Shown: one piece after another, positions 14,962 to 39,434 of the stretch
Layout of the letters: every line of letters starts with the position of its first letter
Position numbering within the stretch: the stretch's first letter is position 1
From: Pseudomonadota bacterium
GTDB lineage: Bacteria > Pseudomonadota > Alphaproteobacteria > Rhizobiales > Hyphomicrobiaceae
Direction of reading: 5' to 3'
Length of the DNA: 40,115 nucleotides
Assembly (NCBI GenBank): GCA_003242645.1
Contig: QGVC01000001.1
Coordinates: 1 to 40,115, forward strand
The notes under the pieces: model-generated
What the model saw: only the letters and a program-made list of their open reading frames with translations
The model's database searches: none
Told to the model about the DNA's origin: nothing
Program-made: the position numbers and the translations under genes

Positions 14962-14980
14962 AAATTGTAAGGAGGAACCC

Positions 14981-16156: not shown

Positions 16157-16178
16157 TCGCGGTTAAGGGGCGATCCGC

Positions 16179-17048: not shown

Positions 17049-17051
17049 GCC

Positions 17052-18047: not shown

Positions 18048-18826
18048 TCGAGCCAGTCCTGCAGCTCGAGAACGTGACCCGGCGCTTCGGCGGACTGGTA
18101 GCGCTGCGAGATGTATCGTTCTCGGTGAACCGCGGGGAAATTCTAGGTCTGATTGGCCCCAACGGTGCCGGCAAGACGACATGCTTCAATGTCATAGCCG
18201 GTGTCTTTCCGCCGACTTCGGGAAGGGTCGTGTTCGAAGGGAGAACGATTTCCGGACTCCGGCCAAATCAAATTGTGAAACTCGGGATCGGGCGCACCTT
18301 CCAGGCCGCAACCGTTTTTGGAACCGCGACCGTTCTCGAGAACGTCTTGCGCGGCGCCTTCGTTCGAACACCTCACCCGTTTTTCGATGGGCTCGTAAAC
18401 GGGGCGCGTACGCGCGAGGCAACGGCGGAGGCGATCCGTAAAGCCGATGCGATCCTTGAGGAGCTGGGCCTTCAGGAATATCGCAATGAGCTGGCCGGTA
18501 GCCTCGCTTATGGCCACCAGAAGCGAGTAGGCGTTGCTATTGCGCTGGCATCAGAGCCCAAGTTGCTCTTGCTCGATGAGCCTGCTGCAGGACTCAATCC
18601 CGAAGAATCAGCCGAGTTTGGCGAGTTGATCCGGAAGATTCATCGGCAACGCGGGCTGTCAATTCTGCTCGTGGAGCACCACATGCAGCTCATTATGGGG
18701 ATTTGTGACAGGATTATCGTGCTGGATCGCGGTGAAAAAATCGCGGAAGGCACGCCTTCAGAGGTGCGGGCTGATCCAAAGGTGATCGAAGCCTACCTAG
18801 GGCAAGAGGCTCATGCCGGCGCTTGA
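18044..18826 (+). CDS. LIV-type ABC transporter ATP-binding protein (LivG-like), system 2
   Basis: A 260-residue ATPase. Walker A is GPNGAGKT (38-45). The LivG signature variant LAYGHQKR is near 160 and Walker B LLLLDEPAAGLNP near 175-187. The H-loop is in LLVEHHMQLIMGICDRIIVLDRG, and GTPSEVRADPKVIEAYLG is the standard LivG ending. It overlaps the permease gene before it by 4 bp and the second ATPase gene after it by 14 bp, so the transporter genes form one tightly coupled block. Confidence 0.95.
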   Translation: MIEPVLQLENVTRRFGGLVALRDVSFSVNRGEILGLIGPNGAGKTTCFNVIAGVFPPTSGRVVFEGRTISGLRPNQIVKLGIGRTFQAATVFGTATVLENVLRGAFVRTPHPFFDGLVNGARTREATAEAIRKADAILEELGLQEYRNELAGSLAYGHQKRVGVAIALASEPKLLLLDEPAAGLNPEESAEFGELIRKIHRQRGLSILLVEHHMQLIMGICDRIIVLDRGEKIAEGTPSEVRADPKVIEAYLGQEAHAGA

Positions 18827-19526
18827 GGTTCGGTCAGTCTCCGTTTTCTACGGTCACGTTGGTGCGCTGCACGACGTTTCGCTGGACGTACCTGAATCGT
18901 CTGTCGTGGCGCTGATCGGGTCCAACGGCGCGGGCAAGACGACGATGATGCGCGCGATCACGAATCTTGTGCGCGTATCAACGGGGGAAATCCGGTTCGG
19001 CGGCAAACGGATAGATCATCTCCGTCCTTCCCAGGTCGCTGAAATGGGAATTGCGCTGTCGCCGGAGGGCCGACGCCTATTCCCGCGCATGACTGTCCTG
19101 GACAATCTGCTTGTCGGCGCGCATTGCGTCCGCGATCAAGGCGTCATAAAAGAATCCATCGAGCGCATTTTCCGACATTTTCCACGCCTTGCGGAGCGCA
19201 GGCGACAGCTTGCTGGCTCGCTTTCGGGGGGTGAACAGCAGATGGTGGCCATCGGACGTGCTCTGATGGCGCAGCCGAAGCTCCTTCTTCTCGACGAGCC
19301 CTCCCTCGGCCTCGCCCCGAAAATGGTGGAAGAGATTGCACGGATCGTGACGGAGATTAGCCGCGCGGGTGGGCTTTCGATATTGCTGGTGGAGCAGAAT
19401 GCGCGGATGGCTCTCAAACTCTGCGATTTCGCCTACGTGCTCGAACGCGGCCGCATTGTGCTGTCTGGCCCAGGATCGGAGCTCTTGGCCAGCGAATTTG
19501 TGCAAAGAGCTTACCTTGGCGTGTGA
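18813..19526 (+). CDS. LIV-type ABC transporter ATP-binding protein (LivF-like), system 2
   Basis: A 237-residue ATPase of normal LivF length. Walker A is GSNGAGKT (36-43). SPEGRRLFPRMTVLDNLLVGA is the typical LivF Q-loop region, LSGGEQQM the signature and LLLLDEPSLGLAPK Walker B. LLVEQNARMAL and a short ending EFVQRAYLGV complete it. It overlaps the LivG-like gene by 14 bp. Unlike the LivF-like protein of system 1 it has no basic tail. It closes the transporter block; metabolic genes follow after 86 bp. Confidence 0.95.
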   Translation: MPALEVRSVSVFYGHVGALHDVSLDVPESSVVALIGSNGAGKTTMMRAITNLVRVSTGEIRFGGKRIDHLRPSQVAEMGIALSPEGRRLFPRMTVLDNLLVGAHCVRDQGVIKESIERIFRHFPRLAERRRQLAGSLSGGEQQMVAIGRALMAQPKLLLLDEPSLGLAPKMVEEIARIVTEISRAGGLSILLVEQNARMALKLCDFAYVLERGRIVLSGPGSELLASEFVQRAYLGV

Positions 19527-19612
19527 ACTGACGGTGATGGCGACTTGGTCAAGATGTAACGGCGTTGTGAACGCGCAAATGACCAGTGACCCGGTTGTCG
19601 ATGAGGTAGACC

Positions 19613-20512
19613 ATGGCTAATGGGAGAGCAATCGCGTTCATCGGGTTGGGCGTAATGGGTGAGCCCATTTGCCATAACTTGGTTCGGAAGAGTGGACGCC
19701 GGGTGATTGCATTTGATTTATCTCCAGATCCTTTGAAGCGGATCAAAGAAGCCGGCGCCGAGATTGCGGGGTCTGCTCGGGAAGCGGCAAATGAGGCCGA
19801 GTTCGTCTTCCTGTGTCTTCCGAGCGGCGCGCACGTGAGGCAGGTCTTCAGAGAGGGCGGTCTCATTGAGGCTGCGCGAACCGGACAGACATATGTCGAC
19901 CTTGGGACATCTCCGGTCGCCTTGGCCCGGGAGCTAGCTGAGGAATTGGCGAAAAAGGGTGCGGATTTCGCGGATGCGCCAATTGCCCGTACTCGCACTG
20001 CCGCGCAAACTGGAACTTTGAGCGTAATGGTTGGTGCGCGGCCAGAGGTTTACAGTCGCCTCGAACCGCTGATTAGCTGCTTTGCGACGGATATCACACA
20101 TTGTGGGGATGTCGGGTCAGGTCAGATCGTCAAGATCCTCAACAACATGGTTTTGTTTCAAACGGTCAATGCGCTCGCGGAGGCTCTGGCCATTGGTAGG
20201 CGCTCTGGCCTGGATCCCGAAAAGCTGTTCTTGACGCTTGCGAAAGGATCAGCAAACAGCTTTGCACTGAATAACCACGGCCTCAAGGCCATGGTGCCGG
20301 GCGTCTATCCGGAACGAGCATTCTCTACCGAATATGCGCTTAAAGACTTGGGCTACGCATTGGAGCTGGCTGAAGAGCTTGGCCTGCGCCTACGGGGTGC
20401 AGAGCTGGTGGGAAAAGTGATGCGAGAAGCTGTTGAAGCCGGTTACGGCAAGCAATACTTCCCGGTGCTTGCTAAGGTCGTCGACCGTCCGAAGGAAGAA
20501 GTAGGGTCATAA
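19613..20512 (+). CDS. 3-hydroxyisobutyrate-dehydrogenase-family NAD(P) oxidoreductase
   Basis: A 299-residue beta-hydroxyacid dehydrogenase. The Rossmann motif is GLGVMGEPICHNL (11-23), and an acidic Asp35 at the end of strand 2 favours NAD+. The catalytic lysine is Lys174 in GSGQIVKILNNM. The substrate loop is unusual: where family members such as HIBADH, GarR and GLYR have DAPVSGG, this protein has DAPIART followed by RTAA. That points to a substrate other than hydroxyisobutyrate or tartronate semialdehyde. GAGGT precedes the ATG. The next genes are an IclR regulator (3-bp gap) and an aldehyde dehydrogenase, so it probably interconverts a hydroxyacid and a semialdehyde that the next enzyme oxidises further. 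Confidence 0.9.
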   Translation: MANGRAIAFIGLGVMGEPICHNLVRKSGRRVIAFDLSPDPLKRIKEAGAEIAGSAREAANEAEFVFLCLPSGAHVRQVFREGGLIEAARTGQTYVDLGTSPVALARELAEELAKKGADFADAPIARTRTAAQTGTLSVMVGARPEVYSRLEPLISCFATDITHCGDVGSGQIVKILNNMVLFQTVNALAEALAIGRRSGLDPEKLFLTLAKGSANSFALNNHGLKAMVPGVYPERAFSTEYALKDLGYALELAEELGLRLRGAELVGKVMREAVEAGYGKQYFPVLAKVVDRPKEEVGS

Positions 20513-20515
20513 CCC

Positions 20516-21292
20516 TTGCCTGAGAATGCTGAGACTCCAACTCAAGGTGTTGCTGCAGTAGATCGGGCCCTTTCTATTCTTAGTGCGTTCGAGGAGAACC
20601 CAGAGCCGCTGACGCTTGCTGCTCTTTCGAAAAAGACAGGGCTCTACAAAAGCACGCTGCTCCGGCTCATCGCATCTCTGCAGGCATACGGCTACATCAC
20701 GCGAAACCCAGATGGCCGCTATTTTCTAGGTCCTACGCTGTTGCGCCTGGGAGCGGCTTATCAGCGAGCGAGCAGCTTGCACGATCGTGTGATGCCCGTG
20801 TTGCGGGAGCTTGTTGCACAAGGTACGGAGAGCCCGTCGTTTCACGTTCGGCATGACGCGAAACAGCGGCTTTGCCTGTTTCGCCTGGACTCCCATCACT
20901 CGACTCTCGATGCTGTGAGCGCAGGGATGCTACTGCCGCTCGACCGGGGAGCTGCCGGAAAAGTCATCCTGGCATTCTCGGGTCAGCAAGGTAAGGAGTT
21001 CGACCGGATTCGGGAGCGCTTTATTGCTGTCTCTTACGGTGAGCGCGATCCGCATTGTGCGGGTTTGGCGTGCCCGGTCTTCGGGGCAGACGGAAATCTA
21101 ATCGGCGCGCTTTCGGTTTCTGGCCCTCGCGAGCGCTTCGATGACAAAAACGTCGCGCGCATGGCGGAATTAGTTATGGAAGCAGCGGTGCGCCTGACGC
21201 GGGATTTCGGCGGGCAGCCGCAAGCTATGCTGAAAGCCAGAGAGATACTGCGCGGATCCTTCGATAGTCCGAAGCGAAAACGCGCGAGCTAG
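20516..21292 (+). CDS. IclR-family transcriptional regulator
   Basis: A 258-residue regulator. An N-terminal winged helix (about residues 12-75: AVDRALSILSAFEENPEPLTLAALSKKTGLYKSTLLRLIASL in outline) is followed by the C-terminal effector domain with LDAVSAGMLLPLDRGAAGKVILAF and CPVFGADGNLIGALSVSGPRERF. IclR proteins bind small organic acids and control catabolic operons. The start appears to be TTG at 20516; no in-frame ATG or GTG precedes the DNA-binding domain and AGGG lies about 10 bases upstream. It sits inside the operon, 3 bp after the dehydrogenase gene and 13 bp before the aldehyde dehydrogenase gene. It probably regulates this operon and is autoregulated. Confidence 0.92.
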   Translation: MPENAETPTQGVAAVDRALSILSAFEENPEPLTLAALSKKTGLYKSTLLRLIASLQAYGYITRNPDGRYFLGPTLLRLGAAYQRASSLHDRVMPVLRELVAQGTESPSFHVRHDAKQRLCLFRLDSHHSTLDAVSAGMLLPLDRGAAGKVILAFSGQQGKEFDRIRERFIAVSYGERDPHCAGLACPVFGADGNLIGALSVSGPRERFDDKNVARMAELVMEAAVRLTRDFGGQPQAMLKAREILRGSFDSPKRKRAS

Positions 21293-21305
21293 AGCGGGAG
21301 AAATC

Positions 21306-22733
21306 ATGGCTGATTATCCGAAACTCAAGTTGTTAATCGGCGGAGAGTGGATTGAGCGGGAAGGCGAACCCGTAATCAATCCGGCGGATGAGTCGATCCT
21401 TGGGACCGTCCCACACGCGTCGCAGCGAGATTTGGAGGCTGCACTCGCCGCGGCGGTCGAAGGGTTTCGTGTCTGGCGGCGTACCTCTCCGGCGAAACGC
21501 TGCGAGATCCTGACTAAGGCTGCAGCGTTGATGCGGGAGCGGGTCGAGGAGTTCGCGGTCACGATGACCCTGGAACAGGGTAAGCCGATTGCTCAGTCTC
21601 GGCTCGAGGTCTTGCGCGCAGCGGATATCATTGAGTGGGATGCGAACGAAGGTCGGCGGACGTATGGACGCGTTATCCCCGCAGAGCCCGGCATGCGGCA
21701 CATTGTTCTGCGCCAGCCCATCGGTCCCGTAGCCGCTTTCTCACCATGGAATTTCCCGGTTAGCTCGCCAGCGCGCAAGGTCGGTGGAGCGCTTGCTGCG
21801 GGATGCTCGATTATTCTTAAAGCATCGGAGGAAACGCCTGGCGGCGCTGTGCAGCTCGCGCGCGCGTTTGTCGATGCCGGGGTGCCGCCGGGTGTGCTTA
21901 ATCTCGTTTTTGGGAAGCCGGCGGCTATTTCGGAATATCTTATCCCGCAGCCTGCTATTCGGCTTGTAACGTTCACCGGATCGATCGCGGTTGGCAAGCA
22001 TCTCGCCGCTATGGCTGGCCAGCACATGAAGCCGGCCATTATGGAGCTCGGCGGGCACGCTCCTGTCATTGTCTGCGAGGATGCGGATCCCGTTGCAGCA
22101 GCCGCAGCATCGGTGGCAGGCAAGTCGCGGAACGCGGGCCAAGTTTGTGTTTCCCCCACGCGCTGGTTCGTTCACGAGCGGGTTTACCGCCAATTCCTGG
22201 ATGCATTTGTGGAGAAGGCAGCCCAGGTAAAGCTTGGGAACGGCCTGGATCCCGCGACGGAGATGGGCCCGCTTGCAAACGAACGGCGACTCGATGCCAT
22301 GATAGATTTCGTGCGCGATGCGAAGTCACGCGGAGCAAAGGTGCTCACTGGTGGCAGTAGGGTTGGTAATCGAGGATACTATTTTCCGCTGACCATTCTG
22401 GCGGAGGTTCCAGAGGATGCCCGGGCCATGCGCGAGGAGCCCTTCGGTCCACTGGCGCTCGTCAACCCCGTAAAGTCGATCGAGGAGGCGATCGAGAAAG
22501 CCAACGCGCTTCCCTACGGTCTTGCGGCATATGCGTTCACTCAATCAGCGCGCAATGCGGATTTGCTGAGCGAAAACATCGAGGCCGGCAACCTGTCGAT
22601 CAACCATTTCGTTGCTTCGGTTGCGGAAACGCCGTTTGGCGGCGTGAAGGAAAGTGGCTACGGGCGCGAGGGCGGCACTGAAGGCCTCAGCTATTACACC
22701 GTCGTGAAAAACGTTTCTCACCGGGTGTCTTGA
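21306..22733 (+). CDS. NAD(P)-dependent aldehyde dehydrogenase (succinate-semialdehyde-dehydrogenase-like)
   Basis: A 475-residue aldehyde dehydrogenase. FSPWNFPVSSPARKVGGALAAG (about 145-166) lines the cofactor site, FTGSIAVGK (223-231) is the nucleotide turn, Glu247 in MELGGHAP is the general base and Cys281 in NAGQVCVSPTR the nucleophile. EEPFGPLALV and SVAETPFGGVKESGYGREGG complete the family pattern. It most resembles GabD-type enzymes that oxidise semialdehydes to dicarboxylates, without CoA. GGGAG precedes the ATG. It is the last gene of the operon. The substrate is likely the semialdehyde produced by the dehydrogenase encoded two genes upstream. The exact substrate cannot be fixed by reading. 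Confidence 0.93.
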   Translation: MADYPKLKLLIGGEWIEREGEPVINPADESILGTVPHASQRDLEAALAAAVEGFRVWRRTSPAKRCEILTKAAALMRERVEEFAVTMTLEQGKPIAQSRLEVLRAADIIEWDANEGRRTYGRVIPAEPGMRHIVLRQPIGPVAAFSPWNFPVSSPARKVGGALAAGCSIILKASEETPGGAVQLARAFVDAGVPPGVLNLVFGKPAAISEYLIPQPAIRLVTFTGSIAVGKHLAAMAGQHMKPAIMELGGHAPVIVCEDADPVAAAAASVAGKSRNAGQVCVSPTRWFVHERVYRQFLDAFVEKAAQVKLGNGLDPATEMGPLANERRLDAMIDFVRDAKSRGAKVLTGGSRVGNRGYYFPLTILAEVPEDARAMREEPFGPLALVNPVKSIEEAIEKANALPYGLAAYAFTQSARNADLLSENIEAGNLSINHFVASVAETPFGGVKESGYGREGGTEGLSYYTVVKNVSHRVS

Positions 22734-22776: not shown

Positions 22777-23466
22777 TTAGGTGCGCTTCTTCTGAATGCC
22801 GTACAGAAAATTCGTCACGATTGTATTCACGACGGCTGGAATGTCAGCGCAGACGGGCACCCCGTGCACCTCGCGGCGGATCAAGTAATAGATGAGTGTT
22901 GAATGGAGGTGCCAGACAAGCTCGAGCTCGAGGGCGCTGAGCGGGCCCGATGTCCTCAATCCTTGCTCATGGCGCAGCTCACGCGCGATGACCTGTAAGA
23001 GTCGATCGATATAGGTCATAATGTAACGCCGTGTCAGACGGTGACCGGCTAGGCTGGATCTCAAGGCGATCCGAATCCAAATCTTGTCGTTAACCACGGA
23101 CGCGTAGTCCAAATAGAATCTTCGCAGTCGCTCCTCCAGGGGAATTGAGCGGTCACGGAGCAGGGGCTCCCAGCTCTCCTTCCAACGCGATACGAACGTT
23201 TCCTCATAAACTCTATTCAGCAGCTCCTGCTTGTTGCTGAAATACTTATAGATCAGTGATTGAGAGACGCCGAGCCCGCGTGCTAGCTCGCGCGTGTCAG
23301 CGGCGAACCCGCGTTCCGCGAAAAATTGCATCGCCCCTTTGAGGATCATGCGCTCGCGTTCCTCGGGCGACATGCGGATGCGTTTGCTGCGCTTGCGCCC
23401 AGGCCCATCAACTGGTGTAGACTTCGTTTCTTGCAACTTCGCGGGGATATCGCTCCGTTCAGTCAA
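22777..23466 (-). CDS. TetR-family transcriptional regulator
   Basis: A dimeric repressor. The basic linker RKRSKRIRMSPEERERMI leads into the TetR helix-turn-helix GAMQFFAERGFAADTRELARGLGVSQ and SLIYKYFSNKQELLNRVYEE, followed by an all-helical ligand domain. The frame stays open to a GTG at 23532 (251 residues), but that GTG has almost no ribosome site and its first 22 residues are unlike TetR. The TTG at 23466 (229 residues) has GGAG six bases upstream and is preferred. It is divergent from the BKACE/TRAP operon, with a TetR-style palindrome between them, and convergent with the aldehyde dehydrogenase gene. It most likely represses the BKACE operon and itself. Confidence 0.9.
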   Translation of the reverse strand: MTERSDIPAKLQETKSTPVDGPGRKRSKRIRMSPEERERMILKGAMQFFAERGFAADTRELARGLGVSQSLIYKYFSNKQELLNRVYEETFVSRWKESWEPLLRDRSIPLEERLRRFYLDYASVVNDKIWIRIALRSSLAGHRLTRRYIMTYIDRLLQVIARELRHEQGLRTSGPLSALELELVWHLHSTLIYYLIRREVHGVPVCADIPAVVNTIVTNFLYGIQKKRT

Positions 23467-23542
23467 AGTACTCTCCGCCGTTGGCCCATCGTAGCTGAGA
23501 AAGAAAATAATCCCGTCAGAGGCGATTGACACCTTCGTAAAA

Positions 23543-23562
23543 TAGTGAACAATTGCTCACTA
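23543..23562. promoter_or_regulatory. Predicted TetR operator in divergent gap
   Basis: TAGTGAAC (23543-23550) and GCTCACTA (23555-23562) flank a palindromic AATT centre, giving a 20-bp palindrome with one mismatched pair. Length and symmetry fit a TetR-family dimer site. It lies 56 bp before the BKACE start codon and upstream of the preferred tetR start, so one bound repressor could control both directions. No second copy was noticed in the window. Confidence 0.8.
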
Positions 23563-23617
23563 GCGCAAGCGGACGTCGGGGTCTTGCGGAAGCGGAAGTT
23601 CGGTTAGGAGCAAGGCG

Positions 23618-24550
23618 ATGGCAAAGGCACGAAAAGCCATAATCACGTGTGCGGTTACGGGCGCGATCCATACGCCCTCGATGTCGGAGTATCTTCCTAT
23701 AACGCCGGATCAAATCGTGGAGCAGGCGCTGGAAGCGGCGGCGGCCGGCGCAGCCATCCTGCACTTGCACGCGCGAGACCCGGAAACGGGCAAGCCCGAT
23801 CAGACCCCTGAGGCGTTCGCACGCTTTCTGCCGCGCATCAAGCAGCAAACAAATGCCGTCATCAATCTTACGACAGGCGGTAGCCCCTATATGAGGGTCG
23901 AGGAACGCGTCAAGCCGGCTGCACAATTCAAGCCGGAAGTAGCCTCGCTCAATATGGGCTCCATAAACTTCGGCCTGTATCATCTGCTTAATCGGTATAA
24001 GACTTTCAAGTTCGATTGGGAGCGACAGCACCTTGAGGCAACGCGCGACCTCGTTTTCCGCAACAGCTTCCAGGACATCGAGTACATCCTAAAGACCTGT
24101 TACGGAAACGATACGCGTTTCGAGTTCGAGTGCTACGACATCGCCCACCTCTATAACGTCAAGCATTTCCTGGATCGTGGCCTGGTGAAGCCGCCTCTGT
24201 TCATCCAGTCGGTGTTCGGCATTCTTGGCGGGATCGGCACGCATCCAGAAGACGTGATGCATATGAAGCGGACCGCGGATCGACTGTTCGGCGATCTTTA
24301 TCAGTGGTCCGTGCTAGGCGCCGGCGCAGCGCAAATGCGCATTGCTGCAATGGCGGCTGCGATGGGGGCTCACGTCCGCGTCGGGCTCGAGGACTCGCTT
24401 TGGGCTGGTCCCGGCAAGCTCGCGACATCGAACGCCGAGCAGGTTCGCATGGTGCGGGGGATTCTCGAAAATATGGGCATCGAGATTGCAACGCCTGACG
24501 AAGCACGGGAAATCCTCGCGCTTAAGGGTGCCGATAAGGTCGCGTTCTAA
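23618..24550 (+). CDS. Beta-keto acid cleavage enzyme (BKACE, 3-keto-5-aminohexanoate cleavage protein family)
   Basis: BKACE enzymes condense a beta-keto acid with acetyl-CoA to give acetoacetate and a new acyl-CoA. The TIM-barrel protein here has 310 residues, about 35 more than the lysine-fermentation enzyme Kce. Zinc ligands are seen as His49 and His51 (HLHAR) and Glu258 (VGLED). Arg254, Asp259 and Glu171 align with catalytic Arg226, Asp231 and Glu143 of Kce. The extra length lies mainly around residues 125-155 (YKTFKFDWERQHLE...). AGGAG precedes the ATG. It is the first gene of an operon with a TRAP importer and a cyclase-family hydrolase, and no lysine-fermentation genes are nearby. The keto acid is therefore probably not 3-keto-5-aminohexanoate. 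Confidence 0.93.
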   Translation: MAKARKAIITCAVTGAIHTPSMSEYLPITPDQIVEQALEAAAAGAAILHLHARDPETGKPDQTPEAFARFLPRIKQQTNAVINLTTGGSPYMRVEERVKPAAQFKPEVASLNMGSINFGLYHLLNRYKTFKFDWERQHLEATRDLVFRNSFQDIEYILKTCYGNDTRFEFECYDIAHLYNVKHFLDRGLVKPPLFIQSVFGILGGIGTHPEDVMHMKRTADRLFGDLYQWSVLGAGAAQMRIAAMAAAMGAHVRVGLEDSLWAGPGKLATSNAEQVRMVRGILENMGIEIATPDEAREILALKGADKVAF

Positions 24551-24581
24551 ACGAGAAAACGTCAACTAGGGAGGAAAAGTC

Positions 24582-25655
24582 ATGAGAGCAAAGGCTGCAG
24601 CCGCTGCCGGCGCGCTGGGCTTGGCATTGTTGGCAACACCAGGGCCGGTCGGGGCTGCCGAGACCATTTCTTTGCGAATTGGCGCCGGGCATCCGGCGGC
24701 GTCGACGTGGATCACGACGATCCGTGAGATTTTCATGCCGCGCTTTGCTGAGCGGGTAAAGGCCGAGACAAATTACGAAATACAATGGACGGAAGCGTGG
24801 GGCGGCTCGGTCTGTAAGCTCGGTGAGTGCCTTGAGGCAGTGGAATCCGGCTTGCTCGACATGGGGGAGCTGCAAACGCCTTTCGAGCCAGCGAAACTGA
24901 TGGCTCAAAACTTCTCCTACTTCGTGCCATTCGGTACTGGAGATCCGATCCTCGCTGCGGAGCTAAATCGTCGTACCTATGAGGAAGTGCCAGCTCTTAA
25001 GCAGATGCTTGAGGAGCGTTACAACCAGGTTTTCGTGGGAGTCGGCATCCTGAGCAACTACGGCCTGGTGACAACCTTCCAATGGGATAAGGTGGAGGAT
25101 CTCAAGGGCCAGAAAATTGCAGCCGCAGGGCCCAATATCCCGTGGGTCCAGTCGGTCGGCGTGGTGCCGGTGCAATCGAATCTCAATGAAGCTTATACGT
25201 CATTCCAGACGGGAGTCTATCACGGCTGGGTGATGTTTCCGGACGGCGTGACATCATTCCGTCTCGAGGAAGTCACCAAGCAGTTCACCATTACCGGATT
25301 CGGCGCCATCGCAACGCCGCTGCTGACGATCAACAAAGACACTTGGGACAGCCTACCGCCCGAAGTACAAAAGATCATGTTGGAGGTCGGCGCCGAGTGG
25401 AACAAGCGCGCTGGCGAATTCACGGCCGAACGGCAGAAGCAAGCTCTTGCCAAAATGAAGGAGGCGGGTCTCCGGATCAAGGAGCTTACCTTCGAAGAAA
25501 AGAAGGCTTGGGCTGCGAAGCTTCCCAACATTCCGAAAGAGCGTTACGAAGAAATGAAGAAATTGGGCCAGCCCGGAGAAGCCGTTTATCACTACATAAA
25601 GCTCCTCAAAGAAGCCGGTCATGAATTCCCGAGAGATTGGGAAGCCGAACGTTGA
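24582..25655 (+). CDS. TRAP transporter substrate-binding protein (DctP family)
   Basis: A periplasmic binding protein of 357 residues. A signal peptide ends near GAA before ETISLRIG. The DctP fold is evident from WTEAWGGSVCKLGECLEAVESGLLDMG, then YGLVTTFQWDKVEDLKGQKI, NEAYTSFQTGVYHGW and INKDTWDSLPPEVQKIM. Most family members have an arginine after DLKGLK (as in DLKGLKIR) that clamps the ligand carboxylate. Here the sequence is DLKGQKIAAAG, with Ala180 at that place, so ligand recognition must differ. Cys78 and Cys83 could form a small disulfide loop. It is the second gene of the BKACE operon, after a 31-bp gap, and a stem-loop follows its stop. Confidence 0.92.
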   Translation: MRAKAAAAAGALGLALLATPGPVGAAETISLRIGAGHPAASTWITTIREIFMPRFAERVKAETNYEIQWTEAWGGSVCKLGECLEAVESGLLDMGELQTPFEPAKLMAQNFSYFVPFGTGDPILAAELNRRTYEEVPALKQMLEERYNQVFVGVGILSNYGLVTTFQWDKVEDLKGQKIAAAGPNIPWVQSVGVVPVQSNLNEAYTSFQTGVYHGWVMFPDGVTSFRLEEVTKQFTITGFGAIATPLLTINKDTWDSLPPEVQKIMLEVGAEWNKRAGEFTAERQKQALAKMKEAGLRIKELTFEEKKAWAAKLPNIPKERYEEMKKLGQPGEAVYHYIKLLKEAGHEFPRDWEAER

Positions 25656-25667
25656 TCGGTAATAAAT

Positions 25668-25691
25668 GGCCGCGCCAATGACGGCGCGGCC
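25668..25691 (+). promoter_or_regulatory. Stem-loop between TRAP binding-protein and small-permease genes
   Basis: GGCCGCGCC (25668-25676) and GGCGCGGCC (25683-25691) form a perfect 9-bp stem with a 6-nt loop, 12 bp after the binding-protein stop. No T-run follows. It is positioned to stabilise the binding-protein message or partly block readthrough into the permease genes. It also covers an ATG at 25666 that might otherwise be taken as the permease start. Confidence 0.75.
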
Positions 25692-25710
25692 TTCCTCGGG
25701 AGAAACTGCC

Positions 25711-26205
25711 TTGAATCCGTACCACCGATTGCTTTCGACGCTGGATCTCGCCGCGAGCATCCTCGTTGCTGCTCTCATGGTGATAATTACCGCCGATGTG
25801 GCGGGAAGGGCTTTCTTTGGCCACCCCCTACATGGGATTCCCGAGCTGACGAAGTTTTCCGTCGTGTGCATGGTATGGCTGCAGATGGCGTATACGCTGC
25901 GGACGGGCAAGCATCTCCGCTCGACGCTGCTCCTGGACATGATGGGTGACACCGGTAGGCGTGCTATTCTTTTTCTGAATTGCGCGGTGGGCGCAATATT
26001 GATGGTGCTGATCGCGTATTACAGCTATCCCGAGATGCTGCGGTCTTGGCGCATCGGTGCCTTTGAAGGCGAGCATCCCGTGCGGATTCCGACGTGGCCA
26101 ATTTGGGCTATCGTTGTGGGCGGGTCGGCGCTGACGGCCTTTGAGTATGCGCGGCAGGCAATCAGTCTCCTCCTCGGCCGTGATGATGTGGAAGTAGATG
26201 CGTAA
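25711..26205 (+). CDS. TRAP transporter small permease (DctQ family)
   Basis: A four-helix membrane subunit of a TRAP importer, 164 residues from the chosen start. Hydrophobic helices begin at LDLAASILVAALMVIITADV, near FSVVCMVWLQMAY, at AILFLNCAVGAILMVLIAYY and at WPIWAIVVGGSALTAFEY. The DctQ-typical charged segment TGKHLRSTLLLDMM lies between helices 2 and 3. The frame opens at ATG 25666, but that codon lies just outside a perfect hairpin and lacks a ribosome site. TTG at 25711 has GGGAG eight bases upstream and begins with the natural LNPYHRLLS, so it is preferred. It holds the binding protein interface together with the large permease encoded next. Confidence 0.88.
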   Translation: MNPYHRLLSTLDLAASILVAALMVIITADVAGRAFFGHPLHGIPELTKFSVVCMVWLQMAYTLRTGKHLRSTLLLDMMGDTGRRAILFLNCAVGAILMVLIAYYSYPEMLRSWRIGAFEGEHPVRIPTWPIWAIVVGGSALTAFEYARQAISLLLGRDDVEVDA

Positions 26206-26236
26206 TCCGCATTGATGTAAGGACTAGGCGCCTACC

Positions 26237-27556
26237 ATGGATCCAACTGTAATTGGCCTGATTTCGATCGCCGCGCTCTTTGCGCTGATCCTCATCGGGT
26301 TCCACATCGGCATCGCACTGATGCTGACTAGCTTCGCTGGTGTATATTTCATTACCGGGCGCCTCACTGTCGGGGCCAATCTCCTTAAAACGACAGCATA
26401 CAGCGCAATTGCTGATTATGTATTCGCCATAATTCCGCTTTTCATATTTATGGGACTACTTACAACTGCTGCGGGAGCAACACGAGAGCTCTTTACATCG
26501 GCTGAACAGTTATTGAGACGGGTGCGCGGGGGCGTTGGTGTCGCGACTGTTGTTGCCAATGCCGTATTTGCGGCGATCACTGGAGTGTCAGTAGCGTCAG
26601 CTGCTGTATTCTCCAAACTGGCAGTGCCCGAAATGGAGCGGCTGAACTACGACCGGCGGTTTAGCCTGGGCATTGTTGCTTCCAGCGCCCTTTTGGGGAT
26701 GCTGATTCCGCCATCCATTCTTATGATCGTCTATGCCGTCCTTACCGAACAGTCGGTCGGCAAGTTGTTCGCGGCGGGTTTAGTTCCTGGCCTCCTGGTG
26801 GCCGGCGCCCTCTCGGCCGCCATTTGGGGAATGGTCACGCTCTGGCCGCGGCTTGGAGGAGTGGGTATCGAACGTCAGGAGGTTCCCGCGAGGGATCGGT
26901 ATTTGGCTATTGTGAAGCCGTGGCCGATTTATCTCTTGATTGCTTTGGTTTTGGGCGGGATTTACGGGGGGTTTTTTACACCTACGGAAGCTGGCGCAGT
27001 GGGCGCGTTCGGAGCTTTGTGCTTGCTGATTGCCCGGGGAAAGTTTTCGACGCGCGGAATGATTGACTTGCTGCTCGAAACGGGTAAGGCGAGCGCAAGC
27101 ATATTTTTCCTGCTGATCGCGGCCTCAATGTACAGCCGTATGCTAACACTTTCGAGGCTGCCGGCAGAGCTTACCGAGTGGATCATTCACCTGCAGGTGC
27201 ATCCGGCCGTAGTATTTCTTGCACTGATCGTCCTACTATTGATTCTCGGAATGATCCTCGACTCGGTCTCGATTCTGCTGTTGACGGTCCCGATCATCGC
27301 GCCTGTCGCAAGCGCGCTGGGATATGACCTCATCTGGCTCGGGATCGTCGTGATCATCACGGTGGAGCTCGGTTTGCTGACGCCGCCGTTCGGGATGGTG
27401 GTTTTCGCGATGAAAGCGGCACTGCCGGATTCCGTGAAGCTGGAAGACATCTACGCTGGCTCAGCTCCTTTCCTGATAGTGCTGCTGCTGATGCTGGCAG
27501 TGATCATCATGTTCCCGCAATTAACGCTGTTCGTGCCGAACCTGCTCTTCGGCTGA
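26237..27556 (+). CDS. TRAP transporter large permease (DctM family)
   Basis: The 439-residue ion-coupled transport channel. It has about 12 hydrophobic segments, with family landmarks FHIGIALMLTSFAGVYF, then FAIIPLFIFMGLLTTAAGATRELF, the GVSVASAAVFSKLAVPEM region, ASSALLGMLIPPSILMIVYA and FFTPTEAGAVGAFGAL. MILDSVSILLLTVPIIAP and ELGLLTPPFGMVVFAMKA follow near the end. The TRAP importer uses a sodium gradient, not ATP. It begins 31 bp after the small-permease gene. It completes the only full TRAP system in this window; the second TRAP-type binding protein at 35959-37002 has no permeases here. Confidence 0.95.
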   Translation: MDPTVIGLISIAALFALILIGFHIGIALMLTSFAGVYFITGRLTVGANLLKTTAYSAIADYVFAIIPLFIFMGLLTTAAGATRELFTSAEQLLRRVRGGVGVATVVANAVFAAITGVSVASAAVFSKLAVPEMERLNYDRRFSLGIVASSALLGMLIPPSILMIVYAVLTEQSVGKLFAAGLVPGLLVAGALSAAIWGMVTLWPRLGGVGIERQEVPARDRYLAIVKPWPIYLLIALVLGGIYGGFFTPTEAGAVGAFGALCLLIARGKFSTRGMIDLLLETGKASASIFFLLIAASMYSRMLTLSRLPAELTEWIIHLQVHPAVVFLALIVLLLILGMILDSVSILLLTVPIIAPVASALGYDLIWLGIVVIITVELGLLTPPFGMVVFAMKAALPDSVKLEDIYAGSAPFLIVLLLMLAVIIMFPQLTLFVPNLLFG

Positions 27557-27596
27557 ACCAAGTATCTCGTTCAACGCAAAAGAAAAGAGGATGAGT

Positions 27597-28550
27597 ATGG
27601 ACATAAAAGTCGGATTAGAAGCCATTGCAGAGGCGAGCAAGAAGCTGTCGAATTGGGGTCGCTGGGGCAAGGATGACCAGATCGGCACGCTTAACTTCGT
27701 TACGCCCGAGATGATCGTCGAGGCAGCGAAGCTCGTCCGCAAAGGCAAAGTTTTCGCACTTGGAATTCCGCTCGACTCCAACGGGCCACAAAACGGTCTT
27801 TTCGGCAGACGGTTCAATCCCATTCACCAGATGCTGGCGACGGGTACGGATGCGGTAGCCGGTCAGCAGGACTGGAATAAGATCCGCTACGCCGACGACA
27901 CCCTCATGCTTTGCGTGCAGGGCGCCACGCACTGGGATGCTCTCGGCCACGTCTTCTACGAGGACAAGGCGTATAATGGCCACGATGCCAGGCTGATCGA
28001 CTCGAGTGGCCTGAAGGTCCTAGGAATCGAGCATTCCAAGGACAAGATGGTTGGGCGCGGTGTGCTTCTCGATATTGCCCGCTTCCGCGGCGTCGATTGG
28101 CTGGAGGATGGCGAAGGCATATCGAACGACGAGCTCGATGCATGCGCCAAGGCCCAAGGCGTTGAGATCCGGCGGGGCGACTTCGTCATCATCCGGACCG
28201 GGCAGATGGAACGGTGCCTCAAGGAGGGCAACTGGGGCGGTTACGCTGGTGGCGATGCGCCCGGCGTGAAGTTCGAGAACTGCTACTGGTGCTATGAGAA
28301 GGAAATCGCGGCGATCTGCTCCGACACGTGGGGTGTGGAGGTTCGGCCGAACGAGACGACGGAAGCGAACCAGCCTTGGCACTGGGTCGTCATTCCGGCC
28401 ATGGGGCTCTGCATGGGAGAAATCTTCTATGTGAAGGAGCTTGCTGAGGATTGCGCGCAGGATGGCGTTTACGAGTTCTTCTTCGTTGGACCGCCGCTGA
28501 TCATCACGGGTGGCACCGGATCGCCGATCAATCCGCAGGCAATAAAGTAA
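27597..28550 (+). CDS. Cyclase-family metal-dependent hydrolase (kynurenine-formamidase-like)
   Basis: A 317-residue member of the cyclase family (PF04199 type), which includes bacterial kynurenine formamidase and isatin hydrolase and usually opens amides or strained rings with Zn or Mn. The metal motif HxGTHxDxxxH appears as GATHWDALGH, giving His112, Asp114 and His118. RRGDFVIIRTGQ and the Trp-His pair in EANQPWHWVVIPAMGL are further family regions. Two ATGs lie close together; the second, 27597, is six bases from AAAGAGG, the first touches it, so the second is preferred. It is the last gene of the BKACE/TRAP operon. It probably hydrolyses the imported compound, or a product of it, to the acid used by the cleavage enzyme; this is inference. 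Confidence 0.9.
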   Translation: MDIKVGLEAIAEASKKLSNWGRWGKDDQIGTLNFVTPEMIVEAAKLVRKGKVFALGIPLDSNGPQNGLFGRRFNPIHQMLATGTDAVAGQQDWNKIRYADDTLMLCVQGATHWDALGHVFYEDKAYNGHDARLIDSSGLKVLGIEHSKDKMVGRGVLLDIARFRGVDWLEDGEGISNDELDACAKAQGVEIRRGDFVIIRTGQMERCLKEGNWGGYAGGDAPGVKFENCYWCYEKEIAAICSDTWGVEVRPNETTEANQPWHWVVIPAMGLCMGEIFYVKELAEDCAQDGVYEFFFVGPPLIITGGTGSPINPQAIK

Positions 28551-28603: not shown

Positions 28604-28647
28604 GAAAAAGATGGCCAAGGGTCAAGCTATTCCCTTGGCCAATTTTG
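28604..28647. terminator. Bidirectional terminator between BKACE operon and matB
   Basis: GGCCAAGGG (28613-28621) and CCCTTGGCC (28632-28640) make a perfect 9-bp stem. To the right it is followed by AATTTTG. On the opposite strand the stem is followed by ATCTTTTTC. It therefore has a T-run on both sides and can end transcription of the cyclase operon from the left and of matB from the right. Confidence 0.85.
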
Positions 28648-28749: not shown

Positions 28750-30279
28750 CTATCCCGTAAACGTCTTTGCGAATTGGGCTCGGAGCTCGCCTTTTTGCAC
28801 CTTCCCCATCGCATTGCGCGGCAGCTCGTCTAGCACGAAAACCCGTTTCGGCAGCTTGAACTTGGCTAACCGATTGGAGAGGGCAGAGATGACTTCGGCT
28901 TCGCTGGGAACCTTGGCTCCGGGTTCAGGTGTCAGGATAGCGATCACGCCTTCCCCAAAATCCGGATGAGGAACGCCGACCACGGCCGACTCGTTAACGC
29001 CCGGCAGAGCGTTCAGCTCTTCCTCGATCTCTTTGGGATAGACGTTGAACCCGCCGGAAATGATGAGATCTTTCGCGCGGCCCACAATCGTTACTCGGCC
29101 ATCCTCTGCCATGGTGGCAAGGTCGCCGGTAATGAAATAGCCGTCGGGCCGAAACTCCTCCTTCGTCTTCTCGGGATTGCGCCAGTACCCTTTGAAGACG
29201 TTTGGCCCTTTGACCTCCAGAACGCCGACCTCGTTTGGAGGAAGAATCTTGCCGTCCTGAGAGGCGACCCGCACTGAGATCCCGGGCAGAGCATAACCCA
29301 CCGTGCCAGCAATCCTCTCGCCGCCCCTGTACGGGTTCGAGGTGATCATGCCGGCTTCGGTCATACCGTACCGCTCGAGGATCTTGTGCCCGGTGCGGGC
29401 CTCGAACTCCTTGTGAGTTTCAGCAAGGAGCGGCGCCGAGCCGGAGATAATCAGCCGCATGCGAGCGCAGTGCTCCCTGCCGAACGCCGGGTTACCGAGA
29501 AGTCGTGTGTAGAAGGTCGGCACGCCCATCATCACCGTGGCTTCCGGCATGTGCCGCATGACGGCTTCAAGATCGAATTTTGGAAGCCAGATCACTCGCG
29601 AGGTGTTGAGAAACGTCGTATTGAGCGCGACGAACAGCCCGTGCGTGTGGAAGATGGGGAGCGCATGGAGCAACACGTCACCGGGCTCGAAGCCCCAGTA
29701 CTCGTGCAGGACCTCTGCATTCGAGGACAAATTGCGGTGGGTGATCATGGCGCCCTTGGAGCGCCCCGTCGTCCCAGAGGTGTAAAGCAGGGCTGCCAGG
29801 TCGTCCGAATCCCGCTCGACGGTACGATGCTCTGTGCTCTGGCCGCGGGCTAGATCGGTCAGCGATCCGGAACCGTCCGCCTCCATTGTCGCGATCTTGG
29901 CAGTGCCTAGCTCAGCAGCAATCGGCTCCACGTGCGGAAGCTTCTCGCCTGGCACGACGATGAGGGCTGGCTCGGCGTCTCTGATGAAATAGTCAAGCTC
30001 TGCAGCGGTATAGGCTGTGTTGAGCGGGTTATAGACTGCGCCAATCTTCAGCGTAGCAAGATACAGGTGGACGTTAGAAATCGATTTTTCGACCTGAACC
30101 AGAACGCGATCGCCCGGCTTGACGCCAAGTGCTGTCAGCGCGTTCGCCATGCGGGCAACGTCATCGAGCAGCTGGGAATAGGTCACGTCGGCGCCACCCG
30201 GTATCGAGAACGCTATAGTTGAGCCGGCGGCGCGGAACCGCTCTTCGAATGCCGCGTAGAGATTTCCTTCGATCGCCAT
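28750..30279 (-). CDS. matB: Malonyl-CoA synthetase
   Basis: MatB activates malonate (and often methylmalonate) with ATP and CoA to malonyl-CoA. It has 509 residues, the rhizobial MatB length. The phosphate loop YTSGTTGRSKG is near residue 166. The substrate and motif-5 region is YGMTEAGMITSNPYRG followed by GTVGYALPG, matching MatB closely. ITGDLA lies near 373, and the C-terminal catalytic lysine is in RNAMGKVQKG. No matA or matC is present. It is downstream of an MFS transporter on the same strand, which might supply malonate or another acid, and ends at a bidirectional terminator. A related short dicarboxylate or aryl acid is possible, but MatB is the best fit. Confidence 0.88.
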   Translation of the reverse strand: MAIEGNLYAAFEERFRAAGSTIAFSIPGGADVTYSQLLDDVARMANALTALGVKPGDRVLVQVEKSISNVHLYLATLKIGAVYNPLNTAYTAAELDYFIRDAEPALIVVPGEKLPHVEPIAAELGTAKIATMEADGSGSLTDLARGQSTEHRTVERDSDDLAALLYTSGTTGRSKGAMITHRNLSSNAEVLHEYWGFEPGDVLLHALPIFHTHGLFVALNTTFLNTSRVIWLPKFDLEAVMRHMPEATVMMGVPTFYTRLLGNPAFGREHCARMRLIISGSAPLLAETHKEFEARTGHKILERYGMTEAGMITSNPYRGGERIAGTVGYALPGISVRVASQDGKILPPNEVGVLEVKGPNVFKGYWRNPEKTKEEFRPDGYFITGDLATMAEDGRVTIVGRAKDLIISGGFNVYPKEIEEELNALPGVNESAVVGVPHPDFGEGVIAILTPEPGAKVPSEAEVISALSNRLAKFKLPKRVFVLDELPRNAMGKVQKGELRAQFAKTFTG

Positions 30280-32268: not shown

Positions 32269-35200
32269 CTACTCTGCTGCCACCTTCACTGGAGCCGGGT
32301 TGAGGAAAGCCTGCAGCAGATCGGCCTCGCGGGATTTCGCAGCTTTGTAGTTCGCCATTTTCACGTGGCCGAAGCCTCTGATTTCTAAAGGCAACTCGGC
32401 CAAAGCTACGGCTGTCTCGTAATTGCTTTGGTCAAGCCGGCTAGCAATAACGTCCAGCAACCGCTCATAGTCGGCAATCATCTGGCGTTCGAGCTTGCGC
32501 TCCGCTGAATAGCCGAACACATCCCATTTTGTTCCGCGGAGCTTCTTGCCCTTGGCCAGCAGCCGAAACACGGGAAGCATCCAGCTTCCAAGGCGAATCT
32601 TTCGCGGATGGCCCGTGGTCTTGTCCTTGAAGAAACGGGAGAGAATCGGCGGGGCGAGATAGAACTCCATCGCCCGCACACCTTCGAACTGCTCATTGAT
32701 CTCGCGCTGGAATGCTTCGACGGCAAACAATCGCGCGACTTCGTATTCGTCCTTGTAGGCCAATAGCTTATGGTAACCGCGCGCGACGGCGAGCGCCAAT
32801 CCGGTGCGGCCGGGAGCTTTGGCTTTTTCCACTCCGGCGATCCAAGCAACCTTTGAGCGGTACCGCGACGCCAACTCCTCGTCCTGGTAGTCGGTGAGGT
32901 GGCGGGCGCGAAGGGCAATGATCTCGTCGAGCGTCTCAGGCTCGCCCGCGTGCTCATCCTGCAGCTTCACCACCCGATCAACGGCTGCCTTGTCGTGAGC
33001 AGTGAGGCGACCGAAGCGGAACGCCGCGCGATTCATTCCGACAGCGGCGCCATTCAATTCAATTGCCTGCTCGATGGCGGCAGCCCCAATCGGCACGAAG
33101 CCGAGTTGGTACGCATAGCCCAGCAGGAACATGTTGGCGGCAATCGAGTCGCCGAAGAGTTTCACCGCGTAGTCGTGCGCATCCAGGGTGTGAAACGGCC
33201 CTTTGCGCACCCGATCTGCAATGGCTTGCAACAGCCGGTCCCCCGGCACTACGAGTTTCGGATTCCTCGTGAATTCGCCGGTGATCAACTCGTGGGTCGA
33301 GACGACCACCGCTGTGTGATCCGGTCGGATCGTCTCGAGGATCTTGTTCGACGCCGTGACGACGAGATCGCCGCCAAGGATAAGGTCAGCATTGGCCACA
33401 CCGACGCGGATGGCGTGAATGGCCTCAGAGTTGCGCGCCACGCGTATGTGGCAAGCGACAGCGCCGCCCTTCTGGGCAAGGCCGGTCATGTCGATGCTGC
33501 CGAAGCCTTTGCCCTCGATATGGGCCGCCTGACCGAGCACGGCACTGATCGTGACGACGCCTGTGCCGCCGACGCCCGTCACCAGCATCGCGTAAGGTTC
33601 ATCGAGGCTTGGAAGCGCAGGCTCAGGGAGATTAGCAGCGAGCTGATCAAGATCGGCAGTGCCGGAAGCGTTTTTTGACGCCTTCACCTTGGCGCCGCGC
33701 AGCATTACGAAGCTGGGACAGAAGCCCTCGATGCAGGAGAAATCCTTGTTGCACGCGGACTGATCAATCGCCCGCTTGCGGCCGAACGGCGTATCTAGAG
33801 GCACGACCGCGACGCAATTGGATTTCTTTCCGCAGTCGCCGCAGCCTTCGCAAACATCCGGGTGGATGAAGACCCGCTTGTCAGGATCAGGGAACTCGCC
33901 GCGCTTCCGGCGGCGGCGTTTTTCGGCGGCGCAGGTCTGATCGTAGATCAGCGCAGTAACACCTTCGGTTTCGGCGAGGGATTTCTGCACCGCCATAAGA
34001 TCGCGGCGGTGATGGACGGTTACTCCGGCGGGAAGACGGTTGGCACCAGTGTACTTGCGCGGCTCGTCCGTTACGACCTCTACGCGGCGTACGCCCTCGG
34101 CGAGAAGCTGGGCCGCGATCTGCGGTACTGTGATGCCCCCGTCGAGCTTCTGTCCGCCGGTCATGGCGACGGCGTCGTTGTAGAGGATCTTGAAAGTGAT
34201 GTTCACGCCGGCCGCTAGCGCAGCCCTGATAGCGAGGCTGCCGGAGTGAATGTAGGTGCCGTCGCCAAGGTTCTGGAAAACGTGCTTGCGCTTTGAGAAG
34301 GGCGCCTCGCCGATCCAGTTGGCGCCCTCGCCGCCCATCTGCGTGAAGCCTTCGGTGGAGCGGTCCATCCACTGGACCATGTAATGGCAGCCGATGCCCG
34401 CGTAGGCGCGCATGCCCTCGGGCACGACCGTCGAGGAATTGTGCGGGCAGCCGGGGCAGAAGTATGGGGTTCTCAGGAAAATCTCGGGCTCGACCGGCCG
34501 GTTGCCCTTGAGCTGCTTCAGTTCGGCTACCTTCGCCTTCAGAGCCTCGCCGCCGACGTTCTGGCGGATAAGCCGCTCACCGATGGCAATGGCGATGTCG
34601 GTCGGCTCGAGCGCGCCCTTGGCCGGGAAGAGCCACTGCTCGTTTTCATCCTTCTTGCCGATGACCCGCGGACGATTCGGCGTGTCGAAGAGCTGCTCTT
34701 TGACTTGAGTCTCAATGAGCGACCGCTTTTCCTCGACGACGATGATCGTCTCGAGACCATCGGCAAAAGCAGCAACACCACGCGGCTCGAGCGGCCAAAC
34801 CATTCCGACCTTGTAGAGCCGGATTCCGAACTGGTTGGCCTTCACTTCGTCGATGCCGAGCTCATCGAGGGCCTGGCGGACGTCGAGGTAGCTCTTGCCC
34901 GTGGTGATGATGCCCAGCTTTGGCGACGGGCCGCCGCTCATGATGATGCGGTCGAGCTTATTGGCCCGCGCAAATGCCAGCATTGCGGGGCGCTTGAAGT
35001 CATGCAGCCGCGCTTCCTTCGCCAGGGGCGGGTCGTTAAGTCGGATGTTGAGCCCACCCGGAGGCATCCGGAACTCATCTTCGCTCGGGATGACGATCTT
35101 CACCCGATCGATCCGGCCATCGACCGTCGCGGTGCTTTCGATGTTGTCCTTGACGCACTTCAGCGCGACCCACACGCCGGCATACCGCGACAGCGCGAAG

Positions 35201-39431: not shown

Positions 39432-39434
39432 GGC

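Follow-up and report, generated by a model that had tools for sequence, protein, structure and literature searches.

Many members of two large families, BKACE and the cyclase family PF04199, are of unassigned substrate. The two families are known to act together in phloroglucinol degradation, in which DPGC, of the cyclase family, opens dihydrophloroglucinol by retro-Claisen cleavage and TAL, of the BKACE family, cleaves triacetate; Glu14 of the lysine-fermentation enzyme Kce binds the 5-amino group of its substrate (both PMC10470551). The substrates on which BKACE15 has been tested include 3,5-dioxohexanoate and beta-ketohexanoate (PMC11961710). Isatin hydrolase has the metal motif HxG[T/A]HxDxPxH, with manganese on His69, His73 and Asp75 (PMC6117287). 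In TRAP transporter binding proteins, Arg-147 of SiaP selects carboxylates, and 3% of the family (199 of 6142) has no such arginine, among them Tp0957, which has alanine, and Csal_0678, which bound ethanolamine (PMC4646407); the isethionate protein 8t9t has Arg156 and Arg177 (PMC11668362). Here we describe a cassette in which genes for a BKACE, a TRAP transporter and a cyclase-family protein stand beside a divergent TetR-family regulator gene in a 40,115-nucleotide stretch (the window) of a Pseudomonadota bacterium of the Hyphomicrobiaceae (assembly GCA_003242645.1, contig QGVC01000001.1, positions 1 to 40,115). Each of these protein kinds is known and their combination is apparently new within the literature searched; that search, judged on titles and the starts of abstracts, found no description of TRAP, BKACE and cyclase combined, which does not establish absence in print, and the main texts of papers on isoflavone and riboflavin catabolism are without the terms cyclase and 3-keto-5-aminohexanoate.

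We tentatively read the cassette, at somewhat below an even chance, as a TetR-controlled catabolic operon for uptake of a neutral cyclic compound, hydrolytic opening of its ring and BKACE cleavage of the product with acetyl-CoA. This explanation is preferred because the same gene order and palindrome occur in the window and in two other loci (L143 and L145), and because BKACE genes occur in 12 of 80 cyclase loci with at least four forced changes of adjacency on the BKACE tree. It is preferred also because the BKACE passes a curated model, the TRAP binding protein has alanine at the selectivity arginine, and DPGC and TAL provide a precedent (PMC10470551), and because in a third genome the same TRAP type adjoins a sub-cut-off caprolactamase/acetophenone carboxylase-like pair in place of cyclase and BKACE. 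By analogy, the operon could work as DPGC and TAL do in their half of phloroglucinol degradation (PMC10470551), which does not imply membership of that pathway. Observation covers the gene content, the repeated order, the palindrome, the absent arginine and the subgroup of the BKACE, whereas each reaction, the substrate and regulation by TetR are inferred.

The cassette is a real, recurrent operon of known enzyme kinds. All six genes exceed curated Pfam cut-offs in a profile scan (Table 1), gaps of 10-34 bases separate the five plus-strand genes (BKACE, TRAP P, Q and M, cyclase), and P, Q and M lie together above cut-offs as a DctPQM set. The initial annotation had outlined five co-directional genes with a divergent TetR gene at the same coordinates and had regarded them as a self-contained unit with its own regulator, closed by a terminator; the profile matches agree, the order is repeated in two further genomes and a terminator-like inverted repeat follows the cyclase stop codon. 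The TetR reading frame is present and divergent as described, with an uncertain start codon that may be GTG at 23532 or lie downstream, at 23373 according to a simple coding-score caller. Among 198 genomes from the family of genome G001, three matched DctM at E ≤ 1e-120, and the same three genomes matched DctP at E ≤ 1e-100 when 391 genomes from the family of G438 were searched. In two of these, G450 (L143) and G438 (L145), TetR diverges from BKACE, TRAP P, Q and M, and cyclase in the window's order, with identities to the window proteins in L143 and L145, respectively, of 80% and 81% for BKACE, 65% and 64% for P, 49% and 50% for Q, 65% and 61% for M, and 79% and 83% for the cyclase. This recurrence of gene order makes the cassette more than chance. 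In the third genome, G407, the TRAP genes lie beside HyuA/HyuB-type genes (L144, 4911-12386, minus strand) whose best NCBIfam matches are both below cut-off (caprolactamase alpha, 575.9 with a cut-off of 1000; acetophenone carboxylase delta, 235.2 with a cut-off of 1500); neither cyclase nor BKACE occurs in the 19 kb examined there, and a cyclase relative (83.6%) lies on a separate contig. When 297 genomes drawn from the order were searched with DctP, 21 of these genomes gave a match at E ≤ 1e-60, the top one at 40% identity. Only two further copies of the cassette were found, and none of 23 loci of about 4 kb from this draw has BKACE or cyclase, so the cassette is rare in the genomes sampled. 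L146 (genome G219) carries TetR, BKACE and cyclase genes close to those of a three-subunit xanthine-dehydrogenase-type enzyme, and an ABC transporter replaces TRAP. BKACE and TRAP binding-protein clusters P0141/P0248, P0172/P0256, P0171/P0259 and P0236/P0264 have, by eye, largest contigs of equal size (7537, 5575, 25491 and 9379), hinting at further such cassettes in metagenomes.

The 20-bp palindrome between TetR and BKACE is probably the TetR operator, and the operon is probably under TetR control. Taken alone the palindrome is modest, since 6 of 143 tiles of 280 bases across the window have one of equal quality. An operator form, TAkTGA-N8-TCAmTA, was derived after inspection of the three TetR-BKACE regions of the window, L143 and L145; exact sites occur once in L143 and twice in L145, every one between TetR and BKACE, and the sole further exact site in 1,751,484 bases (loci plus window) is at 18193 of L012, upstream of the TetR relative there (L148 and L149 duplicate L145 and L143 in this count). 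L023 has the form with one mismatch, L146 has no exact site, and L083 and L084, where a TetR relative lies beside the cyclase gene, have no site within two mismatches. Simple shuffles of the window, L143 and L145 give a mean of 0.01 exact matches. As the sites themselves served to define the pattern, the operator case draws its strength from their position and not from this figure. The TetR protein is 41-49% identical to those of L143 (49%), L145 (47%) and L146. The palindrome overlaps the second hexamer of a sigma-70-like site, which is weak alone because the region has three such sites where shuffles give 2.5.

The TRAP importer likely carries a neutral, or at least a non-carboxylate, cargo. 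Its binding protein has Ala180 opposite Arg177 of 8t9t and a gap opposite Arg156; as the carboxylate-selecting arginine is missing, the cargo may be uncharged. Alanine occupies this position in 41 of 41 aligned rows (the window protein and 40 of 120 listed relatives), a crude pattern over the 120 listed relatives gives alanine in 93, methionine in one and no match in 26, and a wider alignment has arginine there in none of 27 rows. Solved DctP proteins are only distantly similar to the binding protein (best E 4.7e-12). The system would import a small, probably uncharged cyclic compound (a lactone, cyclic 1,3-dicarbonyl or lactam).

The cyclase-family protein is likely a hydrolase whose metal binding may differ. 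Its residues 110-120 are QGATHWDALGH (Q110, H114, D116, H120), with glutamine at the first ligand and leucine for proline of the isatin hydrolase motif. Column 110 of a 14-row alignment has glutamine in 13 rows and arginine in one, column 114 has histidine in 12 and glutamine in two (plasmid rows), and D116 and H120 are kept throughout; distant relatives in L158 (32%) and L165 (31%) have histidine at the first metal position. The protein does not carry the isatin hydrolase hallmarks in full: the motif departs at its first histidine and its proline, and the GLQC/GLAS signature was not found. The only solved relative found at E ≤ 0.001 is the uncharacterised protein 5ibz (E = 1.9e-68); an AlphaFold model had a mean pLDDT of 42.9 and was not used. 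Opening of an amide or ring had been proposed for this enzyme, of which the amide is one option, and its family relative DPGC cleaves a C-C bond (PMC10470551). The enzyme would add water to the ring to yield a beta-keto acid, or a beta-hydroxy acid to be oxidised by a dehydrogenase encoded elsewhere.

The BKACE passes NF053538 (3,5-dioxohexanoate:acetyl-CoA acetone transferase) with 560.9 bits against a cut-off of 430 and falls below the other models (Kce NF052387, 227.5 against 382; the 3-oxoadipate model, 158.8 against 350). The NF052387 score rejects lysine fermentation through Kce and confirms the earlier view that this is not the lysine-fermentation enzyme. The protein is 63% identical (192/305) to BKACE15, aligns end to end and gapless with 3e49 and 3e02 and with single-residue gaps with 8rio, and is matched by 3lot over nearly its full length. 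A segment near residues 125-155 that the initial annotation took to be extra is ordinary for the subgroup, being common to 3e49, 8rio and 3e02, with Kce 2y7d offset by 22 residues. Ile17, which follows TGA, is read as the position of Kce Glu14 and CsTAL Trp16, the exact column of Kce Glu14 in the BKACE alignment being one that we assume. Residue 265 was considered as a marker of cyclase-adjacent BKACEs, in which it is proline in 17 of 17 rows (lysine in BKACE15), and was rejected, since proline is also found in 7 of the 28 rows of lactonase/3HCDH type and in 3 of the 6 remaining rows.

BKACE would pass the terminal acetyl unit of the beta-keto acid to acetyl-CoA, with acetoacetate and an acyl-CoA as products. 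Our first guess is that this acid is 3,5-dioxohexanoate or a near analogue of it, in which case acetoacetate and acetoacetyl-CoA would form; were the cyclic source triacetic acid lactone or a phloroglucinol-type triketone, these two enzymes alone would suffice. A sharper form of this proposal, which we consider improbable, is a redox-free two-enzyme route in which the arginine-less TRAP system would bring in a neutral ring of polyketide type, either triacetic acid lactone or a 1,3,5-triketone tautomer, the Gln-variant PF04199 enzyme would open it as a lactone or by retro-Claisen cleavage to 3,5-dioxohexanoate, and BKACE would form acetoacetate and acetoacetyl-CoA. The substrate had been left blank in the initial annotation; it is unproven, and a class is now suggested by the NF053538 group and the pathway of PMC10470551. 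It had also been envisaged that the BKACE might group with a subgroup of known substrate needing no hydrolase: it does fall in the curated 3,5-dioxohexanoate group, but the described route making that acid uses a cyclase-family hydrolase (PMC10470551).

Pairing of cyclase and BKACE genes was followed from both sides. Scanning genome contigs for the cyclase turned up 472 relatives; the top 80 loci (L001-L080, 83-89% identical) were retained, marine OCS116 and Rhodobiaceae among them. BKACE occurs in 12 of these 80 loci (L001, L002, L006, L008, L009, L016, L017, L018, L021, L036, L059 and L069), and these pairings are not independent because eight share one Ancylobacter-type arrangement. A TRAP gene occurs in none of the 80 (E ≤ 1e-10 over half the query), and TRAP as part of a wider cyclase neighbourhood was rejected. 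Within 6 kb of the cyclase gene in 87 rows (the 80 loci, L083, L084, L110, L143, L145, L146 and the window; L110 and L146 are one genome), BKACE occurs in 17, a HisD-like gene in 53 and a xanthine-dehydrogenase-type large subunit in 36. A PuuE-like deacetylase is also near in 9 of the 53 HisD-adjacent rows, and the cyclase clusters of L012 and L023 (2700-9940) adjoin homoprotocatechuate meta-cleavage-like genes (FAA hydrolase, VOC dioxygenase and isomerase; partly by eye). On a BKACE tree of 54 rows, cyclase adjacency needs five changes, at least four of them forced by well supported branches, and a single origin of all cyclase-adjacent BKACEs is not supported; the window BKACE sits in a group with weak support (82/70), made up of 14 cyclase-adjacent rows and two others. 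The tree rows are not a fair sample, the cyclase loci having been chosen by likeness to the window cyclase and the BKACE rows drawn from several searches. With this caution, the pairing appears to have been made, lost or reshuffled several times, and such repeated re-pairing speaks for function and against one inherited block.

Several observations weigh against the operon reading set out above. No BKACE occurs in 68 of the 80 cyclase loci; 34 have both 10-kb flanks, and BKACE is present in 8 and absent from 26 of these, so BKACE is not the sole partner of the cyclase reaction. Among 397 genomes searched for BKACE, 86 had a match at E ≤ 1e-130 and 30 loci were kept, of which one has a cyclase gene within about 1.5 kb and 29 do not; conservation of cyclase beside BKACE, set beforehand as a test, is thus seen only in part, at 12/80 from the cyclase side and 1/30 from the BKACE side. 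The L143 and L145 BKACEs lie elsewhere on the tree, with the 3HCDH-adjacent BKACE of L115; the well supported group around the window in a quick cyclase tree does not include L143, L145 and L110/L146; and a second G438 cyclase (L170) is 86.5% identical to that of the window compared with 82.7% for the cassette copy. Given the separation on both trees and this nearer second cyclase, the three cassettes may differ in substrate. The curated name of the BKACE may not be its natural substrate, as BKACE15 is active on several acids, and the hydrolase activity is only predicted, because the first HxG[T/A]HxDxPxH ligand is glutamine. An oxidation step may sit between ring opening and BKACE, given the SDR gene of L143 and the HisD-like genes near 53 of 87 cyclase genes, and the cassette has none. 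On the side of the operon reading, tblastn of the window (E ≤ 1e-3) gave no matches with eight relatives as queries (SDR, three; 3HCDH, two; SMP-30, glycerate kinase and HisD, one each), so dehydrogenases of the types found at other loci are not part of the cassette; none of the 22 window reading frames scanned against profiles is a PGR-type SDR or TfD-type 3HCDH. The ring compound is therefore perhaps at the right oxidation level already, or a dehydrogenase is encoded elsewhere.

Genes beside other BKACEs could point to a different chemistry, a lactone route like deoxyribonate catabolism, which we rate as unlikely. The imported compound would then be a neutral lactone derived from a deoxy-sugar acid or a comparable hydroxy acid and the cyclase its lactonase; a dehydrogenase would oxidise C3, and BKACE would split the 3-keto acid into acetoacetate and a hydroxyacyl-CoA. 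Genes like 3HCDH and/or SMP-30 stand beside BKACE relatives (71-82% identical) in 25 of the 30 loci, two of them through matches of 28-29%, which also speaks against a special role. Four plasmid relatives were examined: L081 and L086 have SMP-30, 3HCDH and SDR genes, with glycerate kinase in L086, and resemble the pathway of PMC6365646; in L085, 3HCDH and SDR genes occur but SMP-30 does not, and L082 encodes an SDR together with an aldehyde dehydrogenase. In L143 the SDR gene comes immediately after cyclase. The window, however, has no SMP-30-, 3HCDH-, SDR- or glycerate-kinase-like gene by tblastn, and most cyclase-adjacent BKACE rows, that of the window included, form the weak group apart from most SMP-30/3HCDH rows, with L143 and L145 beside a 3HCDH-adjacent row. 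A PF04199 member acting as sugar lactonase was not met in the literature passages covered.

The xanthine-dehydrogenase-type subunits near 36 of the 87 cyclase genes could instead point to N-heterocycles, which we hold to be a doubtful alternative. A molybdenum hydroxylase would make a lactam or imide from an N-heteroaromatic compound, the cassette would import or finish the lactam with the cyclase as cyclic-amide hydrolase, and BKACE would take the keto acid. BKACE, cyclase and the xanthine-dehydrogenase-type subunits are consecutive in L146, where a gene for a PF22607-containing FAD monooxygenase lies close by; isatin hydrolase and KynB, of the same fold, are amidohydrolases (PMC6117287, PMC4243253); and in L144 a caprolactamase-like pair, below cut-off, adjoins the same TRAP type. 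Yet Ile17 at the position of the amino-binding glutamate of Kce argues against an amino-keto acid, the cyclase has no GLQC/GLAS signature, and the cassette is without a molybdenum hydroxylase, the one in the window being 8.6 kb away on the opposite strand.

That the cassette is a cut-down version of the known phloroglucinol pathway (PGR, DPGC, TfD, TAL) appears very improbable: the same two enzyme families do occur in one operon, but the window has no PGR-type SDR or TfD-type 3HCDH by either search, isoleucine stands at the presumed Trp16 position of CsTAL, and the sole solved relative found for the cyclase is the uncharacterised 5ibz. Chance neighbours of no common pathway are scarcely credible, for although 68 of 80 cyclase loci have no BKACE and 29 of 30 short BKACE loci no cyclase, an identical six-gene order recurs in three genomes with the palindrome in the same position and several separate pairing changes on the tree.

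Table 1. Positions of the cassette genes and associated signals in the window, with profile scores given against their cut-offs.
Feature	Position	Strand or placement	Basis
TetR-family regulator	22777-23532	-	TetR_N 51 vs 24 bits (Pfam cut-off)
Sigma-70-like promoter, TTGACA-16-AACAAT, towards BKACE	23526-23553	+	consensus match only
Probable TetR operator, 20-bp palindrome TAGTGAACAATTGCTCACTA	23543-23562	between TetR and BKACE	9/10 arm bases paired
BKACE, NF053538 group, 310 aa	23618-24550	+	PF05853 361.6 vs 24.8 bits
TRAP substrate-binding protein, DctP type (P)	24582-25655	+	PF03480 92.9 vs 23.4 bits
TRAP small permease DctQ (Q)	25666-26205	+	PF04290 86.7 vs 28.3 bits
TRAP large permease DctM (M)	26237-27556	+	PF06808 296 vs 23.8 bits; TIGR00786 306.6 vs 268.45
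PF04199 cyclase-family hydrolase, 5ibz type, 319 aa	27591-28550	+	Cyclase 75.7 vs 23.1 bits
Terminator-like hairpin	28613-28640	+	9-bp stem, GGCCAAGGG 28613-28621 and CCCTTGGCC 28632-28640, then AATTTTG (short T run)

A consensus scan also lists a terminator-like site at 28620-28640; the scan alone is weak, because the region has 12 such sites where 5.9 are expected. The next gene, convergent with the cassette, encodes a malonyl-CoA synthase (28750-30279, minus strand; NF005702, 791.4 against 558 bits); gene calls over 19 kb of L143 and of L145 include no such gene. On the other side, the plus strand at 14089-22733 has a row of genes for an alpha/beta hydrolase, an ABC transporter (branched-chain amino acid type by eye), a HIBADH-like dehydrogenase, an IclR regulator and an aldehyde dehydrogenase, which is probably a second catabolic unit. 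A large protein with POR, TPP_enzyme_C and DUF6537 domains (32269-35757, minus strand) is, we presume, like indolepyruvate ferredoxin oxidoreductase. An exported-looking protein of 347 residues (35959-37002, minus strand), with no Pfam match at E ≤ 0.001 and no NCBIfam match at E ≤ 1e-15, adjoins xanthine-dehydrogenase-type genes at 37122-39911.

A recurrent small operon that joins BKACE, cyclase, transporter and regulator narrows the chemistry to a few steps, and a short substrate panel would test both enzymes. The cargo of arginine-less TRAP carriers would also become clearer from one that is tied to a catabolic operon.

The nearest described systems match the cassette in part. Deoxyribonate catabolism (PMC6365646) likewise combines BKACE with lactone and hydroxy acid chemistry, and two of the four plasmid relatives (81 and 74.5%) lie in similar-looking operons; its SMP-30, dehydrogenase and glycerate kinase kinds are absent from the window by tblastn. 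Isatin hydrolase and KynB (PMC6117287, PMC4243253) have PF04199 in common with the window cyclase, which retains the His-x-Asp-x3-His part of the motif and differs in the glutamine for the first metal histidine, the missing GLQC/GLAS, its length of 319 residues and its solved relative, 5ibz. The TRAP binding protein is, like Tp0957 and Csal_0678, without the arginine and has alanine as in Tp0957 (PMC4646407), a likeness by description only. BKACE15 of Paracoccus denitrificans (8RIO/8RIP/9HNF, PMC11961710) belongs to the same long subgroup as the window BKACE, at 63% identity over 305 residues; no operon is shown to be common to the two, and its physiological role is undefined according to that paper. 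The phloroglucinol cluster of Clostridium scatologenes (PMC10470551) differs in its PGR and TfD, for which tblastn with SDR and 3HCDH relatives found no counterpart in the window, in a 'major family transporter' where the window has TRAP genes, and in the residues opposite Ile17 (presumed CsTAL Trp16) and the glutamine that replaces the first metal-motif histidine, DPGC being set beside the window cyclase by description alone. As in the window, that cluster encodes a cyclase-family hydrolase and a BKACE-family enzyme together, and its BKACE step gives acetoacetate and an acyl-CoA, as proposed here.

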